Shown in pieces: positions 9,133-36,821 of a DNA stretch of 64,000 bases. The stretch is from Thermococcus sp. (GTDB lineage: Archaea; Methanobacteriota_B; Thermococci; Thermococcales; Thermococcaceae). Numbering within the stretch: the first letter of the stretch is position 1; every line of letters begins with the position of its first letter. The notes beneath the pieces are model-generated. The model was not told the origin of the DNA. It saw nothing but the letters and a program-made list of their open reading frames with translations, and made no database searches. The translations under genes and the position numbers were made by a program. The DNA lies in NCBI RefSeq assembly GCF_027023865.1, contig NZ_JALVUC010000011.1, positions 1-64,000 of the forward strand, read 5' to 3'.

Positions 9133-9175
9133 TGGGCCTCGGTTAACCCTCTTTTCTTCACCATTCAGCGTGGCT

Positions 9176-9255
9176 AACGCTCGTCATTGGCCCAAGGGAA
9201 TTGGGAAAGACTTTTTAAAAAGCAACCGGAAGAATAATGGGGAATGACGAGCGTT
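9176..9255. repeat. 13-bp perfect inverted repeat around a TATA-like palindrome
   Basis: AACGCTCGTCATT (9176-9188) and its exact reverse complement (9243-9255) flank 54 bp that contain CTTTTTAAAAAG (about 9211-9222). The plus-strand TATA-like element would start a transcript near 9240-9250, where no gene follows. It could be part of a small RNA promoter or an operator. Confidence 0.5.
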
Positions 9256-32061: not shown

Positions 32062-32529
32062 CTACCATTCCCTTTTTCTGCTCCCTATGAATAGACCCGT
32101 CTTTAGGTAAGCCATGTACTCGTCGTGGGCAAACTTTAAGCTGAATGCCTGCGTCTCCTCCGGCGAGAGCCACTCAACCTCCTCAGGAATGCCTTCCTGC
32201 CAGACGTAAACGAGACCGTCTCTGTCGCGCGCTATCAGGAGGGTGTGTAGGGGCTTTTCAAGCTCCTGGGCAAGCTTTACCTCCCTTCCAACCAGTGAGG
32301 TGAACTTCCCGAGGGGCGCTACCGCCACGAATATCTCCGCGTCCTTTATCCTGCCGCTGGTGTCACGCAGGCCGTAGTCCGAGGGCACTAGGATGTTGTT
32401 GGAGCCAAGTTTTTCATCTATGATCTCAAGGATTGCTTTCTCGGTCCTCGTATGATATAGGAAGGTAGGTTCGCTCAGGTAGACGAACGGTCCGTGGCGC
32501 TCCTTCTTCCTCCTCAGAAATCCGAGCAT
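32062..32529 (-). CDS. Conserved hypothetical protein, cytoplasmic
   Basis: A 155-residue soluble protein with no signal peptide or membrane segment and no enzyme motif that I recognise. The central part (GRIKDAEIFVAVAPLGKFTS and QELEKPLHTLLIARDRDGLV) alternates strand- and helix-like stretches, suggesting one alpha/beta domain. GAGGTGG lies 4 nt before the ATG; this ribosome site is itself inside a perfect palindrome and a candidate small RNA (next entry). It is convergent with the Nfn-like operon. Confidence 0.6.
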   Translation of the reverse strand: MLGFLRRKKERHGPFVYLSEPTFLYHTRTEKAILEIIDEKLGSNNILVPSDYGLRDTSGRIKDAEIFVAVAPLGKFTSLVGREVKLAQELEKPLHTLLIARDRDGLVYVWQEGIPEEVEWLSPEETQAFSLKFAHDEYMAYLKTGLFIGSRKREW

Positions 32530-32532
32530 ACA

Positions 32533-32600
32533 ACCACCTCAGGTGGGGATAAAACTTCGTCATCGCTCACTCCGTAGGGATGACACTCATCATCGGTTCG
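32533..32600 (-). ncRNA. Candidate C/D box sRNA
   Basis: On the minus strand, box C ATGATGA (32593-32587), an imperfect D' GTGA, box C' ATGACGA and box D CTGA (32542-32539) occur in the order and spacing of archaeal C/D sRNAs: about 55 nt from C to D, with guides of about 16 and 14 nt. Flanking AACC and GGTT can pair as a terminal stem. Box D falls in the palindrome CCACCT-C-AGGTGG that also holds the ribosome site of the gene at 32529. The D' deviation keeps confidence low. Confidence 0.35.
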
Positions 32601-32830
32601 CAACTCAAATCTCCCTTCTAAGGCCTTCTTTCGGCCAAAGGAGACTTTTCCGAGGAGTGGGTGTCATCGGTTAAAGGTGCCCCATCATCCCACCCCTTCG
32701 AAAGTGCTCTAGAAAGGGGGGTTAAAAGGTTTTGCCGTTCCGCCGATAGTTTTCAGGGTATGCTTCCAAAACCTTTATATTCAAAAATTCTTATTTTTAT
32801 CCGGTTATATTGGGATTATGGTGAGAAAAT

Positions 32831-33601
32831 ATGAATACCATGGGGATCTTGAGGCGGCTCTCTGAATTGGGGGATGTATTCACAAAGAAGGAAGCTCAAG
32901 AGAAGCTCGGCATGAGCACGAAGCAGTTAAACTACTACCTTGAAGCCCTCCTTAGAGAGGGATTTCTCAGGAGAGTCACCAAGGGCATCTACACGCTCTC
33001 CCTAGAGCCTGGGAGGACCTCTTCCCCCCACGAGTTCGTTTTGGGGCAGTTGTTAGTGCCCAACGGAGCGGTTGCCTACTGGTCAGCCCTGAACTACTAT
33101 GGAATGACCGAGCAGATCCCAAGAACGGTTTTCATCCAGACACCAGTAAAGAAGGACTACCGGAAGCTCCTGATCGTCGACGGCAAGAGGTTTAAGGTGA
33201 TCGTAGTCAGCCCTGAGAAGTTTTTTGGAATCAGTACCATACGTCTTGGACGCAGAGAGGTCCGGATAACAGACCCGGAAAAGACGATAGTGGACTGTTT
33301 GGACAAGCCCAAGTACTGCGGGGGGATAATCGAGGTTCTTAAGGCCCTCAAGAACGCGAGGCTGGATTATGAAAAGCTGCTGGAGTACGCCGAGAGGATG
33401 AAGAGCAAGGCCGTTCTGAAGCGTTTGGGATTTTTGAGTGGGAGGCTGGGGCTTGGGATTGAGAAGGAAATCAGACTTTCTGAAGGGGACCGGAAGAGCT
33501 TTGCACTCCTCGACCCTTCAATGCCCCCTGAAGGTCGCTTTAACTATCGGTGGGGCCTTCGGATCAACGTTCCGGATGATTACTGGGAGGAGGTAGAATG
33601 A
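32831..33601 (+). CDS. AbiEi-type antitoxin/transcriptional regulator
   Basis: A 256-residue protein with an N-terminal winged helix (residues about 8-55; VFTKKEAQEKLGMSTKQLNY) and a C-terminal AbiEi antitoxin-like domain with VPNGAVAYWSALNYYGMTEQ and ITDPEKTIVDCLDKPKYCGG. It is the DNA-binding antitoxin half of type IV AbiE toxin-antitoxin systems, which usually represses its own operon. GGTGAG precedes the ATG. Several TATA-like runs lie at about 32776-32815. Its stop overlaps the next start (ATGA), as in intact AbiE operons. Confidence 0.82.
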   Translation: MNTMGILRRLSELGDVFTKKEAQEKLGMSTKQLNYYLEALLREGFLRRVTKGIYTLSLEPGRTSSPHEFVLGQLLVPNGAVAYWSALNYYGMTEQIPRTVFIQTPVKKDYRKLLIVDGKRFKVIVVSPEKFFGISTIRLGRREVRITDPEKTIVDCLDKPKYCGGIIEVLKALKNARLDYEKLLEYAERMKSKAVLKRLGFLSGRLGLGIEKEIRLSEGDRKSFALLDPSMPPEGRFNYRWGLRINVPDDYWEEVE

Positions 33602-34014
33602 TTGAGGAGGAGATAAAAGTCCTGAGTTCCGAGCTTGGGGTTCCGGTCTCTACCGTTGAGAAGGACTATGCTATAAGCTGGATGCTCTACGGTCTCTGGA
33701 AGTCAAAGTTTTGGAGGGCACTGGCTTTTAAGGGAGGTACCTGCCTGAAAAAGGCTTACTCCCCGGACTACAGGTTTTCTAAGGACCTTGACTATACTCT
33801 TCTTTTGGAGGAGCCGAGTATAGAGGAGGTTCGAGCTAAAATAGCCGAAGCCGTTGAAGCGGCCAGTGAAGGGCCCCTTCAGTTCCTGGATTTTGAGCTG
33901 AGGCCGAGATACGGAGTAAGGCTTTTCAAAGGGGAGCTTCTTGGATTTGAAGTTCGGATTCCGCTTAGAGTGCTCAGCAGAACCGGAAATCCGCGGGAGC
34001 GGCTACGTTGTTAA
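33598..34014 (+). pseudogene. Truncated AbiEii-type nucleotidyltransferase toxin
   Basis: The reading frame gives 138 residues with the nucleotidyltransferase core WRALAFKGGTCLKKAY and FSKDLDYTLL, which are the GG and DxD catalytic parts of AbiEii/DUF1814 toxins. Family members are usually 220-300 residues. Here the frame ends at once after RIPLRVLSRTGNP, where the second half should begin. Downstream sequence continues to read like protein in other frames, so the toxin is cut off by a frameshift or a recombination join. It is probably inactive although the catalytic core is present. Confidence 0.75.
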
Positions 34015-34143
34015 CATACCCTCAAAGCTGGCCCTCTGGACATTTATTAGAACCAAGGTTTTTTGAGGGTGCCATTAGGGAAGTCATCTCACTGGTAAAA
34101 GACCCTGCCACGACCGGTGTAATGGACCTGGCCATCAGCAACT
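34015..34143 (+). pseudogene. Out-of-frame protein-like tail behind the truncated toxin
   Basis: After the toxin stop, one frame reads YVVNIPSKLALWTFIRTKVF and stops at a run of six T; the next frame continues FFEGAIREVISLVKDPATTG then VMDLAISNY and a stop. Together they look like one C-terminal fragment with a frameshift in the T run. The family was not recognised, so whether it is the lost AbiEii half or a different gene is open. A minus-strand frame overlaps it. Confidence 0.35.
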
Positions 34144-34295
34144 ACTAGATGAGGATCGGACACTCTTGCGTACAGAGGTATTGCATTGGTGTAGAATTGA
34201 AGTGGAATACAATATTCTGGATCCAAAAGTTGAATATCCTTAGGATCTCTCAAACTTAATAGATTCAAAAAAGAGAGGGAGGCTTTAGATCCCAT
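34089..34295 (-). other. Possible 68-residue reading frame after the peptidase gene
   Basis: An ATG at 34295, inside the last codons of the peptidase frame, opens 68 codons ending GRGRVFYQ. The middle (LLDPEYCIPLQFYTNAIPLY and ARVSDPHLVVADGQ) looks protein-like and shares the AT-rich codon use of the peptidase gene. No ribosome site or family was recognised. It overlaps the plus-strand tail fragment, and only one of the two is likely to be a true coding relic. Confidence 0.25.
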
Positions 34296-34892
34296 TGTAA
34301 TAAACAACGTAAGTCCAGTTGCTGTCATAAACCTCGGTCGGAGCCACCGCGTAACCATACTCCCAGCTCCAGCTAGGGTTAGGATCAAGGTTTACTTGTC
34401 CGTTGCTTGCAGCCATGTAAGCCGCCCACACTAGTTGAGAGCAGTAATACTTATCATCATAAACCTTCGGCTTGCTGAAAAAGTCCCAATTGTATGACTT
34501 TCCAACCTGAGCCAGAGCAAACTGGACAGCAGCTTCTTTAATAGCATCACTCACAGCAACCCTCTCAATGGCAACAGTTTCATATCTCGTCAGGAAAGTA
34601 CTAAACGTGGTCACGTGAACTCCAGTACTCGGCTCCGCCTCGACAACGAGCCAATCGTTGTAATAATCACTCCATCCAACAATCATGCCAACATGATCCC
34701 AGTAACCTGGAATTAGTGAGGCGAGCCCTGAGGAGTCATGTCCAAACACTAAGTCACCCACTTCAACGTTGGTTGGGTATGGTGTGTGTAAGAGCCCGTC
34801 CCTGAGCTAAAGCTAAGCGCTGAAGCGAACCCTGCACTACTGACCATTCCCAATACCATCAAGACCAAACCAAGCACGGTCAAACGCTTCAT
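34285..34892 (-). pseudogene. Secreted permuted papain-like (YiiX/NlpC-P60 type) peptidase, frameshifted
   Basis: The main frame encodes VEVGDLVFGHDSSG, WDHVGMIVGW (His), VVEAEPSTGVHV and the Cys motif YYCSQLVWAAYMAA, the order expected for circularly permuted papain-fold amidases such as YiiX. It lacks a start. In another frame, an ATG at 34892 with GAGGTGG upstream begins MKRLTVLGLVLMVLGMVSSA, a clear signal peptide ending near Ala-Ser-Ala. The two parts would join if one G were restored in the run near 34801-34804, giving a protein of about 200 residues. It is either a real pseudogene or a base-calling error in a G run. Confidence 0.7.
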
Positions 34893-34980
34893 ATGAACCA
34901 CCTCAAAAACCAAATAAAGAAAAAACTAATAATAAATCTAACGGTTTTAACAACCGTCCGTTCTAATTAGTAGCTTCTGG

Positions 34981-35006
34981 CCTTCCTCTAACCCAAAGGA
35001 GGAAGG
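34981..35006. repeat. 8-bp stem hairpin next to an interrupted frame
   Basis: CCTTCCTC and GAGGAAGG pair around a 10-nt loop. On the minus strand the right side continues GAGGAAGGCCAG, which recalls the GAGGAAGTCAG ending of the IS605 relic at 19.8 kb. The likeness is weak and is noted only as a possibility. Confidence 0.4.
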
Positions 35007-35305
35007 GTTTCAGTGAGTGACCCTACTTTGCTCTTTAGGGGGTTAGGGCTTTTTCTAAAATCCTCCGTATAAGCCACTGCAAGAGTCTTCAAAAAACTCT
35101 GGCAACCCCTCAACAAGCCAACAAGACCCAACTTCTAATCGACCACCCGTTTGTACTCTTGCTTCCCTTTATGATTTGCATTCTGACCCACTTTTTGCAC
35201 TTTAATCCTATGTGAGAGACTCACGTATCTTACAGGGTGGGTGCCTGGTTGTAGCGTGCAAGATTGTGAAAAAAGAGTGAGTGCACTGCCCCGACGTTTC
35301 AGCAT
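34988..35305 (-). pseudogene. Reading frame of 105 codons with one internal TAG
   Basis: From an ATG at 35305 the minus strand reads 56 codons (MLKRRGSALTLFSQS to QEYKRVVD), meets a TAG at 35137-35135, and continues open for 48 more codons (KLGLVGLLRGCQSFLKTLAV to SLTETLPPLG) to a second TAG at the hairpin. No ribosome site and no family were seen. An AT-rich region could give such a frame by chance, but a single stop in 105 codons makes decay of a former gene plausible. Confidence 0.25.
35212..35243 (+). repeat. Palindrome-containing direct repeat, copy A
   Basis: GTGAG-AGA-CTCAC followed by GTATCTTACAGGGTGGGTG. Copy B, 171 bp downstream at 35383-35413, has GTGAG-AAA-CTCAC followed by GTATGTTATAGTGGGTGG. 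The two share about 27 of 31 positions, including the palindrome, in one orientation. Confidence 0.6.
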
Positions 35306-35336
35306 TTTCTACTTTAGTTTTTTGTGAACAAATTAG

Positions 35337-35365
35337 AAGGGCACACTTCCGACTCAAGTGCCCTT
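35337..35365. repeat. 8-bp inverted repeat (hairpin)
   Basis: AAGGGCAC and GTGCCCTT are perfect complements around a 13-nt loop. The hairpin lies between the two palindromic repeats. There is no strong T run after it, so a structural or protein-binding role is as likely as termination. Confidence 0.5.
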
Positions 35366-35380
35366 AATGTGGAACAATAT

Positions 35381-35413
35381 ACGTGAGAAACTCACGTATG
35401 TTATAGTGGGTGG
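35381..35413 (+). repeat. Palindrome-containing direct repeat, copy B
   Basis: ACGTGAG-AAA-CTCACGT is a perfect 7-bp inverted repeat, followed by the same type of tail as copy A (ATGTTATAGTGGGTGG). The five AGTATCA units begin 3 bp after it. Confidence 0.6.
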
Positions 35414-35415
35414 AG

Positions 35416-35458
35416 AGTATCACAGTATCAGAAGTATCATCTAGTGTCAGTAGTATCA
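35416..35458 (+). repeat. Five iterated AGTATCA units (iteron-like)
   Basis: AGTATCA starts at 35416, 35424, 35433 and 35452, with AGTGTCA at 35443, so units repeat every 8-10 bp, near one helical turn. Such arrays occur at replicon origins and at multi-site operators. The same bases also lie in a 46-codon minus-strand frame (35504-35364, MRHIYARDGTWGSDEM onward), so a small protein with a repetitive Asp-Thr segment is an alternative explanation. Confidence 0.5.
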
Positions 35459-35502
35459 TTTCATCACTCCCCCACGTTCCATCCCTTGCATAGATGTGCC
35501 TC

Positions 35503-35529
35503 ATTATCTATATTAAAAACATAGATAAT
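35503..35529. repeat. 9-bp inverted repeat around an AT-rich core
   Basis: ATTATCTAT and ATAGATAAT pair perfectly around ATTAAAAAC. The core could serve as a TATA element with operator arms, or as an easily melted site. Confidence 0.5.
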
Positions 35530-35620
35530 CGTGAACAGTTTAGAAAAGCACATGAGTATCCCTCTTTTTTAAATCTCACCCCTTAGGACTGGAGGAGGTT
35601 CAGTTTTTCACTAAAACCTA

Positions 35621-35641
35621 TTGAAAGGGCAAGACTTTCAA
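35621..35641. repeat. 7-bp inverted repeat
   Basis: TTGAAAG and CTTTCAA pair perfectly around GGCAAGA. It lies in the gene-free part of the 34.9-35.9 kb interval; no use for it is apparent. Confidence 0.4.
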
Positions 35642-35707
35642 AAGAGAAATGTAAACCTCCTCACTATTTAATCCCCACTCCTCCCATTAAGGCTTTCAGA
35701 GAGGCAG

Positions 35708-35884
35708 TCAAGCTTTAACCAGCCTATCATTGTTGCCCAAAATAACTTCAAGGGTATCAGTGCAGATAACCAAACACAACCTTTTCTCACATCTTCCAGC
35801 AGAGAGATTGCACTCCTTTTTAAGATAATATAAAAGGATATCACATCGACACTTCTCAGTGATCAACTCAATGATGAGCAGACC
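35708..35884 (-). other. Possible short Cys-rich reading frame
   Basis: A minus-strand frame of 58 codons (LLIIELITEKCRCDILLYYL then KKECNLSAGRCEKRLCLVIC and GNNDRLVKA) has protein-like composition with six Cys. It opens after two stop codons, has only TTG as a possible start, and lacks a ribosome site, so it may be the end of a decayed gene. No family was recognised. The remainder of 34.9-35.9 kb apart from the repeats listed shows nothing I can support. Confidence 0.3.
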
Positions 35885-35921
35885 TTATTAAGGTTTAGCC
35901 CGAAAATACCCCGGTGATAAA

Positions 35922-36821
35922 ATGCGTGTTATCCACCTCGCCTCGGAAAGCCTCGGCGTTAGGAGCTTAGCTACCTTCGTCGAAGCCTCTGGTTTAAAAA
36001 TCTTCATAGATCCTGGCGTCGCCCTCGGCCCGAAGCGATACGGCCTTCCACCGGCGAAGGCGGAGCTCAACGCCCTCCACCAGATGAGAAGGAAGCTCCA
36101 GGGCTACGCTAAAAGGGCCGATGTTGTGACCATCTCCCACTACCACTACGACCACCACACGCCCTTCTTTGAGGGCCTCTACGAGAGCTCAAGTGAGGAA
36201 TACGCGAGGGAAATCTACGAGAACAAGCTCCTCTTCATCAAGCACCCGCGGGAGAACATAAACTTCAGCCAGAGGAAGAGGGCATGGGCCTTTCTCAAAA
36301 ACGCTGAGCCGATAGCGAAGAGAATAGAGTTCGCCGATGGGAGGAGCTTTGACCTCGGCGGGGTTACGCTGGAGTTCTCTCCGGCGGTTCCACACGGAAG
36401 CGAGGGATCGAAGTTGGGCTTCGTCGTGATGGTTTTAATTGATGATGGCTCCGAAAGGGTGATTCACGCCAGCGACATACAGCTCCTGAACCGCAAATCC
36501 GTCGAGTGGATAGTCGAGAAGAACCCAGACTTGCTCATAACCGGCGGGCCACCGACTTACCTTGGCCCGAGGGCTGCTGGCGCCTGGGAAACCGGAGTCA
36601 AAAACCTCAATGAGATAATCCGCGAGACGGACGCGGAAATAACCCTCGACCACCACATCATCAGGGACAAGCGCTACCCGGGGTTCTTCGATGAGCTGGA
36701 GGAGAGGCCTAAAACGTTCGCGGGCTACCTGAAGGTTGAGGACAGGCCACTCGAGGCATATCGAAGAGAGCTTCACAGGATTGAAAAGGGAGAGAGGATG
36801 CGGACGTGCCTTCAGGGGTAA
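35922..36821 (+). CDS. MBL-fold metallohydrolase (UPF0282 family)
   Basis: A 299-residue metallo-beta-lactamase fold protein. SHYHYDHHTPF gives the HxHxDH metal motif, VPHGSEGS and HASDIQ supply further ligands, and LDHHIIRDKRYPGF lies near the C-terminus. The family is archaeal and uncharacterised. GGTGATAAA precedes the ATG directly. It marks the right border of the accessory, AT-rich interval. Confidence 0.85.
   Translation: MRVIHLASESLGVRSLATFVEASGLKIFIDPGVALGPKRYGLPPAKAELNALHQMRRKLQGYAKRADVVTISHYHYDHHTPFFEGLYESSSEEYAREIYENKLLFIKHPRENINFSQRKRAWAFLKNAEPIAKRIEFADGRSFDLGGVTLEFSPAVPHGSEGSKLGFVVMVLIDDGSERVIHASDIQLLNRKSVEWIVEKNPDLLITGGPPTYLGPRAAGAWETGVKNLNEIIRETDAEITLDHHIIRDKRYPGFFDELEERPKTFAGYLKVEDRPLEAYRRELHRIEKGERMRTCLQG

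Follow-up and report, generated by a model that had tools for sequence, protein, structure and literature searches.

What is the origin of a kilobase that holds no clear gene and is crowded with palindromes and short direct repeats? The question is raised by positions 34893-35921 of the window, that is, of the whole 64,000-nucleotide stretch of Thermococcus DNA analysed here. A first-pass annotation, made from the letters alone, had listed a series of repeats in this interval and read them as a plasmid or virus origin or as a multi-site operator in a former integrated element. The repeats are real and lie far above chance. The lack of a clear gene was also borne out, the longest wholly contained open reading frame (ORF) being 58 aa. 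As claimed, the interval is AT-richer (GC 0.42 against about 0.53 around it) and genes nearby are broken: a C92 peptidase gene is frameshifted and an AbiEii gene ends at 138 aa. No RNA family reached its cut-off within the kilobase, and sub-threshold snoRNA matches there were rejected as being at chance level. A scan for sigma-70 promoters, a model not apt for an archaeon, gave barely more than chance.

The repeats and related features of the kilobase are the following.

35209 to 35227, no strand: palindrome 1, operator-like TATGTGAGAGACTCACGTA
35337 to 35365, no strand: 8-bp hairpin AAGGGCAC/GTGCCCTT, arms at 35337-35344 and 35358-35365
35380 to 35398, no strand: palindrome 2, operator-like TACGTGAGAAACTCACGTA
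35416 to 35458, plus strand: four AGTATCA units and one AGTGTCA
35503 to 35529, no strand: inverted repeat ATTATCTAT-N9-ATAGATAAT
35585 to 35662, minus strand: IS605/TnpB-type transposon end within a 16-bp inverted repeat

Two direct repeats with a central palindrome had been placed 171 bp apart, and they are found there as units of 27 nt (35209-35235 and 35380-35406) that are 85% identical. Each is a near-perfect palindrome, and the palindromic repeat site was absent from 100 of 100 shuffles of the window. Both units also have a common downstream stretch, CATTnTCTA...GTGAACA..TTAGAA..GCACA, which on its own is weakly significant (12 of 500 shuffles were as good); the palindrome repeat may amount to an imperfect module of about 170-210 bp. 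The 8-bp hairpin is present, with a z of -4.0. The iteron-like units are spaced at 8-10 bp as described, and four of the five are exact (AGTATCA starting at 35416, 35424, 35433, and 35452), the fifth being AGTGTCA at 35443. In 300 simulated 64-kb sequences (first-order Markov), no 7-mer of this kind occurred four times within 45 bp, and the array is the sole cluster of its kind within the window. The inverted repeat reported around ATTAAAAAC was likewise recovered at 35503-35529. For the AGTATCA array and the 12-bp inverted repeat, no counterpart was found elsewhere. Overall, the kilobase has five centres of inverted repeats whose arms measure 7 bp or longer, against 0.66 expected (about 8-fold); none of 400 simulations reached five.

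One of these repeats, the 7-bp pair TTGAAAG/CTTTCAA, lies inside the transposon-end remnant at 35585-35662. Seven related copies of this end occur in the genome, some of them directly upstream of TnpB genes; at four loci (L007, L013, L015, and L016) a copy of the terminal sequence stands about 85 bp upstream of TnpB. A genus-wide match at 35624-35655 was considered as a CRISPR repeat and rejected, as it is this IS605/TnpB-type end.

The claim of a former integrated element can be followed through the genomes of relatives. The features that enclose the kilobase are given below, where MBL stands for the metallo-beta-lactamase-fold gene.

32062 to 32529, minus strand: conserved 155-aa gene, left chromosomal flank; in the 15 genomes with an empty site it adjoins sR55 and MBL
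32537 to 32597, minus strand: box C/D sRNA gene sR55 (Rfam RF01307; 66.4 bits, cut-off 35), intact, the integration target
32578 to 32597, plus strand: left att core GGATGACACTCATCATCGGT, the complement of the sR55 5' end with box C, from junction analysis
32598 to 32830, no strand: island left end, common to islands at the same site in other genomes
32831 to 33601, plus strand: AbiEi-like antitoxin gene, island cargo (Pfam AbiEi_1, AbiEi_4)
33598 to 34014, plus strand: AbiEii-like toxin gene, truncated at 138 aa (Pfam AbiEii, 1.8e-12)
34285 to 34913, minus strand: C92 (YiiX-type) peptidase gene with a signal peptide, split by a frameshift into two overlapping ORFs (Pfam PF05708, 3e-28)
35844 to 35863, plus strand: right copy of the att core, in register and degenerate (11 of 20 bases; HMM columns 45-97, E = 0.002)
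35864 to 35921, plus strand: conserved MBL upstream region, right chromosomal flank, 74-82% identical in relatives
35922 to 36821, plus strand: MBL gene, conserved, right flank (Pfam Lactamase_B_2)

A genome from the same genus has the 155-aa gene, sR55, and the MBL gene next to one another. Therefore, the region upstream of the MBL gene was compared across 60 genomes. For 45 genomes of the genus the comparison was possible, with both flank genes on one contig and in the expected orientation. Fifteen of these sites are empty: the flank genes lie 121-162 bp apart, with only sR55 between them, strongly conserved. The other 30 are filled, with gaps of 0.85-46.7 kb that reach at least 14 kb in eight genomes. 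Family-wide, sR55 is present in 85 of 94 genomes and MBL homologs in 83 of 94. A further gene of the box C/D sRNA type, sR34, is present at 9137-9191 of the window.

When filled sites were matched to an HMM of the empty site (97 columns), they aligned in two pieces, one next to the 155-aa gene (columns 1 to about 64) and one next to the MBL gene (columns about 41-97). The two pieces overlap in a 20-nt core, GGATGACACTCATCATCGGT, which is complementary to nt 1-20 of sR55, box C among them. Complete islands carry this 20-bp core at both ends. sR55 remains whole at the left junction, and most insertions begin at its 5' end. Left junctions fall at or just past the core in 27 of 33 cases; six run beyond it, so not all insertions at the locus arose alike. 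Five right junctions are clean (L045, L051, L057, L070, and L084). In two genomes (G010 and G053), the core stands beside the recombinase and is followed by further DNA rather than the MBL flank, and in G010 this DNA begins like the left end of another island; the arrangement is as expected of a putative tandem integration.

Some loci depart from this pattern. At L040, L046, and L078, 1-1.5 kb separates the flank genes and the sR55 region apparently continues past the core, and other insertions therefore occur beside the site. At L065 (G014), 11.7 kb lies between the flank genes, and their orientation to each other is unusual, suggestive of an inversion there. In addition, about 120 bp of the island left ends is held in common (window 32598-32720; L098, L100, L101, and L106-L108). 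A second GTCATCGGTTAAAG motif lies about 75 bp inside these left ends and could be a recombinase arm site.

In complete islands, a protein of 390-440 aa adjoins the right core and reads away from it. It carries the invariant R...K...R...Y pattern (R207, K242, R331, and Y387), and the first fold match of the structure predicted for the G055 protein is Cre, with a match probability of 1.0. By residues and fold, the protein at the sR55 site is a predicted tyrosine recombinase. Pfam does not recognise the G055 protein, and a distant relative at the G032 site has a weak Phage_integrase match. The recombinase profile gave nothing significant against PDB sequences, and no match was found in the plasmid and phage collections. 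Homologs occur in 16 of 94 family genomes, with the core just upstream of the gene in 10 of them. Two of these 10 (G065 and G076) belong to other genera, where sR55 does not neighbour the MBL gene; in both, an intact sR55 follows the recombinase on the same strand, at a distance of 31 and 44 kb. Because recombinase and core co-occur in two other genera where sR55 lies elsewhere, the integration target is sR55 itself and not its neighbourhood.

Against this background, the kilobase is the non-coding right part of an integrated-island remnant of about 3.25 kb, at 32598-35843. The left att core of the window is perfect, and a search that allowed 3 mismatches found it nowhere else in the genome. 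The adjoining island left end is 90% identical to that of G039 over 235 bp and 52-71% identical to most others. The right core is degenerate, with P of about 0.004 at fixed register. No trace of the recombinase is left; the element is called a remnant because the recombinase is absent from the window but present in relatives at the site. The proposed integration in the window rests mainly on comparison with other genomes, since the right core keeps 11 of 20 bases and the recombinase has left no trace. With the empty-site genomes, the att duplication, and the integrase-bearing relatives, the suggested former integrated element takes shape as a 3.25-kb remnant at a recurrent sR55 site.

The cargo of the remnant consists of the AbiE pair and the peptidase gene; no replication gene was found in it. 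AbiEi homologs occur at the same site in eight genomes. Intact relatives of AbiEii have about 264 aa against 138 aa in the window, and the pair is probably inactive because AbiEii is truncated. Among larger islands, that of G032 has genes for type I restriction-modification and for McrBC, that of G010 combines AbiE with genes for a methylase, PLD, and a DEAD helicase, and that of G007 has metabolic genes; the C92 peptidase gene is absent from the other islands. At the sR55 site of G032, the island (L111, G032:C1:966300-980600) is 14 kb long and encodes McrBC, an AAA ATPase, a methylase, and a type I specificity subunit; here the recombinase gene adjoins sR55, at the opposite end of the island.

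The palindromes have counterparts at other loci. The exact core CGTGAGAAACTCACG occurs in nine copies among 61 genomes, all nine in five Thermococcus genomes, where about 0.2 would be expected from genome size, and three of them in the genome studied here. The other two copies in this genome lie just upstream of pseudogenes of a small helix-turn-helix (HTH) protein, one of them next to AbiE genes and the other next to a CRISPR array, and in G035 the palindrome precedes an intact HTH homolog. In G030 and G048, it stands 83-93 bp upstream of a gene for a protein of 235-253 aa. Across this family, a CGTGAR-N3-YTCACG-like palindrome is found at -83 to -97 in 14 of 16 loci. The structure predicted for the 235-253-aa protein has PadR in complex with its operator as first match, although Pfam does not assign the protein to PadR. 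The palindrome is thus probably the operator of PadR-like regulators, whose binding to it we infer from the conserved distance and the predicted fold. In several genomes, the predicted PadR-like regulators sit near AbiE genes, and an AbiEii gene is close by at the G030 locus.

Other surroundings of the palindrome were also noted. At L036 (G000:C19:307224-310421), the CGCGTGAGAAACTCACGCA palindrome and an HTH pseudogene adjoin a CRISPR-DR6 array. At L029 (G000:C25:4285-7303), a palindrome and a pseudogene of the HTH protein are flanked by a second AbiE-type pair of the genome. At L155 (G030:C1:209606), the palindrome lies beside ORFs resembling cas1 and cas2, known from sequence only. Four palindrome matches in viral contigs were rejected, as the contigs are without related genes and four is about the chance number. 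The same was done with the 28 matches in genome contigs, of which one is in Thermococcus (the G035 contig) and the rest are scattered over bacteria, as expected by chance. The HTH protein had no match in plasmids.

By analogy with these loci, the window palindromes look like orphan operators of PadR-like type whose regulator was lost. The reading is by analogy because the kilobase is without a PadR-like or HTH remnant; neither these nor an integrase remnant was found in it. We hold it likely, with room for doubt, that a decayed island integrated in the sR55 gene has the kilobase as its non-coding right arm and that the palindromes of the kilobase are orphan operators.

The sequences show empty and filled sites, the duplication of att, a recombinase at the junction, sR55 as the target in three genera, and a palindrome at constant distance from the regulator genes; the recombination itself and the order of decay are what we infer. 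A tyrosine recombinase, since lost here, would have put an island into the sR55 gene by recombination within its first 20 nt. sR55 would have been left whole at the left junction, with island DNA where its own upstream sequence had been, and the 20 nt would have been duplicated at the right junction, next to the MBL gene. Most of the island would later have been deleted, leaving the AbiE pair, the broken peptidase gene, the transposon end, and the regulatory segment.

The density of repeats invites other explanations. In a former plasmid or virus origin, the AGTATCA units would be iterons of a lost initiator, the inverted repeats would be sites of unwinding or nicking, and the palindromes would form part of that origin. 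Direct repeats at a regular 8-10 bp, AT-rich DNA, dense inverted repeats, and the location in a former mobile island all agree with this. However, a search of plasmid and phage collections, in line with the first-pass annotation's proposal to search archaeal plasmids and viruses, gave no homologs of the kilobase (a single phage match had E = 0.3), the array was not found elsewhere, and the remnant has no replication or initiator gene, the kilobase being without coding sequence. Elsewhere, the palindrome is found next to regulator genes, AbiE, and CRISPR loci, not at replicons. An origin is unlikely, with some probability left to it by the AGTATCA array, which nothing else here explains, and of the two functions first suggested the multi-site operator is the better one, favoured by the palindrome-regulator distance, while the origin found no support.

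Operators could instead belong to the C92 peptidase gene (34891, reading leftward), so that the island history would be irrelevant. The kilobase is indeed the intergenic DNA that separates this gene from the MBL gene, and the palindromes are operator-like, but they stand 300-500 bp from the peptidase start as against 83-97 bp at PadR-like genes, and the gene is frameshifted and absent from other islands; we regard this explanation as distinctly unlikely. That the kilobase is non-functional debris, a product of transposon ends and chance repeats in decaying DNA, would fit the transposon-end remnant, the broken neighbouring genes, and the lack of relatives for the rest of the kilobase. It is made very improbable by the statistics of the palindromes and the array, and by nine exact cores with conserved placement against an expectation of about 0.2. 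In fact, the kilobase is debris now, but debris made of former functional sites.

Beyond the preferred reading of a decayed island in sR55, a broader proposal is put forward tentatively, as possible rather than probable: a box C/D guide-RNA gene would be a long-standing hot spot for defence islands in Thermococcales. As the site of recombination is the sRNA 5' end, islands would replace the promoter side of the sRNA with their conserved left end (about 120 bp), which would then have to drive, or at least tolerate, sR55 expression, and islands may control the expression of this conserved guide RNA or depend on it. Whether islands alter guide-RNA expression becomes testable, and sR55 offers an exact place to look for islands in Thermococcales. 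Likewise, the palindrome-regulator pair is a testable candidate for an archaeal operator recurring near AbiE and CRISPR loci. Used by one recombinase family in three genera, and filled in about two-thirds of the Thermococcus genomes compared, this conserved box C/D sRNA gene would add a class of targets to those known.

Several known systems resemble parts of the locus. PadR autoregulation in Bacillus subtilis (PDB 5x11) is similar in its winged-helix fold and in having a palindrome at a set position ahead of the gene that encodes the regulator; the proteins here, whose operator binding is predicted, differ in a sequence that Pfam does not recognise as PadR and in a palindrome that is not alike. 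As in copies of IS200/IS605 family transposons beside TnpB genes, the terminal sequence is retained in the window, but as a single end without a transposase gene. Iteron-type plasmid origins also have regularly spaced short direct repeats in AT-rich DNA; the kilobase differs in having no initiator gene, and no related replicon was found. The AbiEi and AbiEii domains follow the usual order of AbiE (type IV) toxin-antitoxin loci, with the difference that AbiEii is truncated in the window.

The closest comparison is with elements integrated in tRNA genes. Descriptions of archaeal integrative elements have them mostly in tRNA genes and at a few intergenic or protein-gene sites. According to a review, archaeal tyrosine recombinases target tRNA genes, intergenic sites, and protein genes (PMC8371274); the words "sRNA" and "snoRNA" do not occur in it. 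The islands and plasmids of Thermococcales described in other papers use tRNA genes (PMC5126054, PMC6972569): PYG1 is integrated in tRNA-Gln (PMC5126054), the pT26-2 family was integrated in tRNA genes by tyrosine recombinases (PMC6972569), and pTN3-like elements use the 5' half of tRNA genes (PMC8371274). No report of a C/D sRNA or snoRNA gene as an archaeal integration target was found in the open-access papers searched, most subscription papers lying outside the search. The sR55 islands share with these elements a site-specific recombinase at one end, an att direct repeat located in a small structured RNA gene, which stays intact, and a cargo of defence and accessory genes. They differ in that the target is a box C/D sRNA gene with a core of about 20 bp at its 5' end, and in that the recombinase gene stands whole beside the core and is not split by it.
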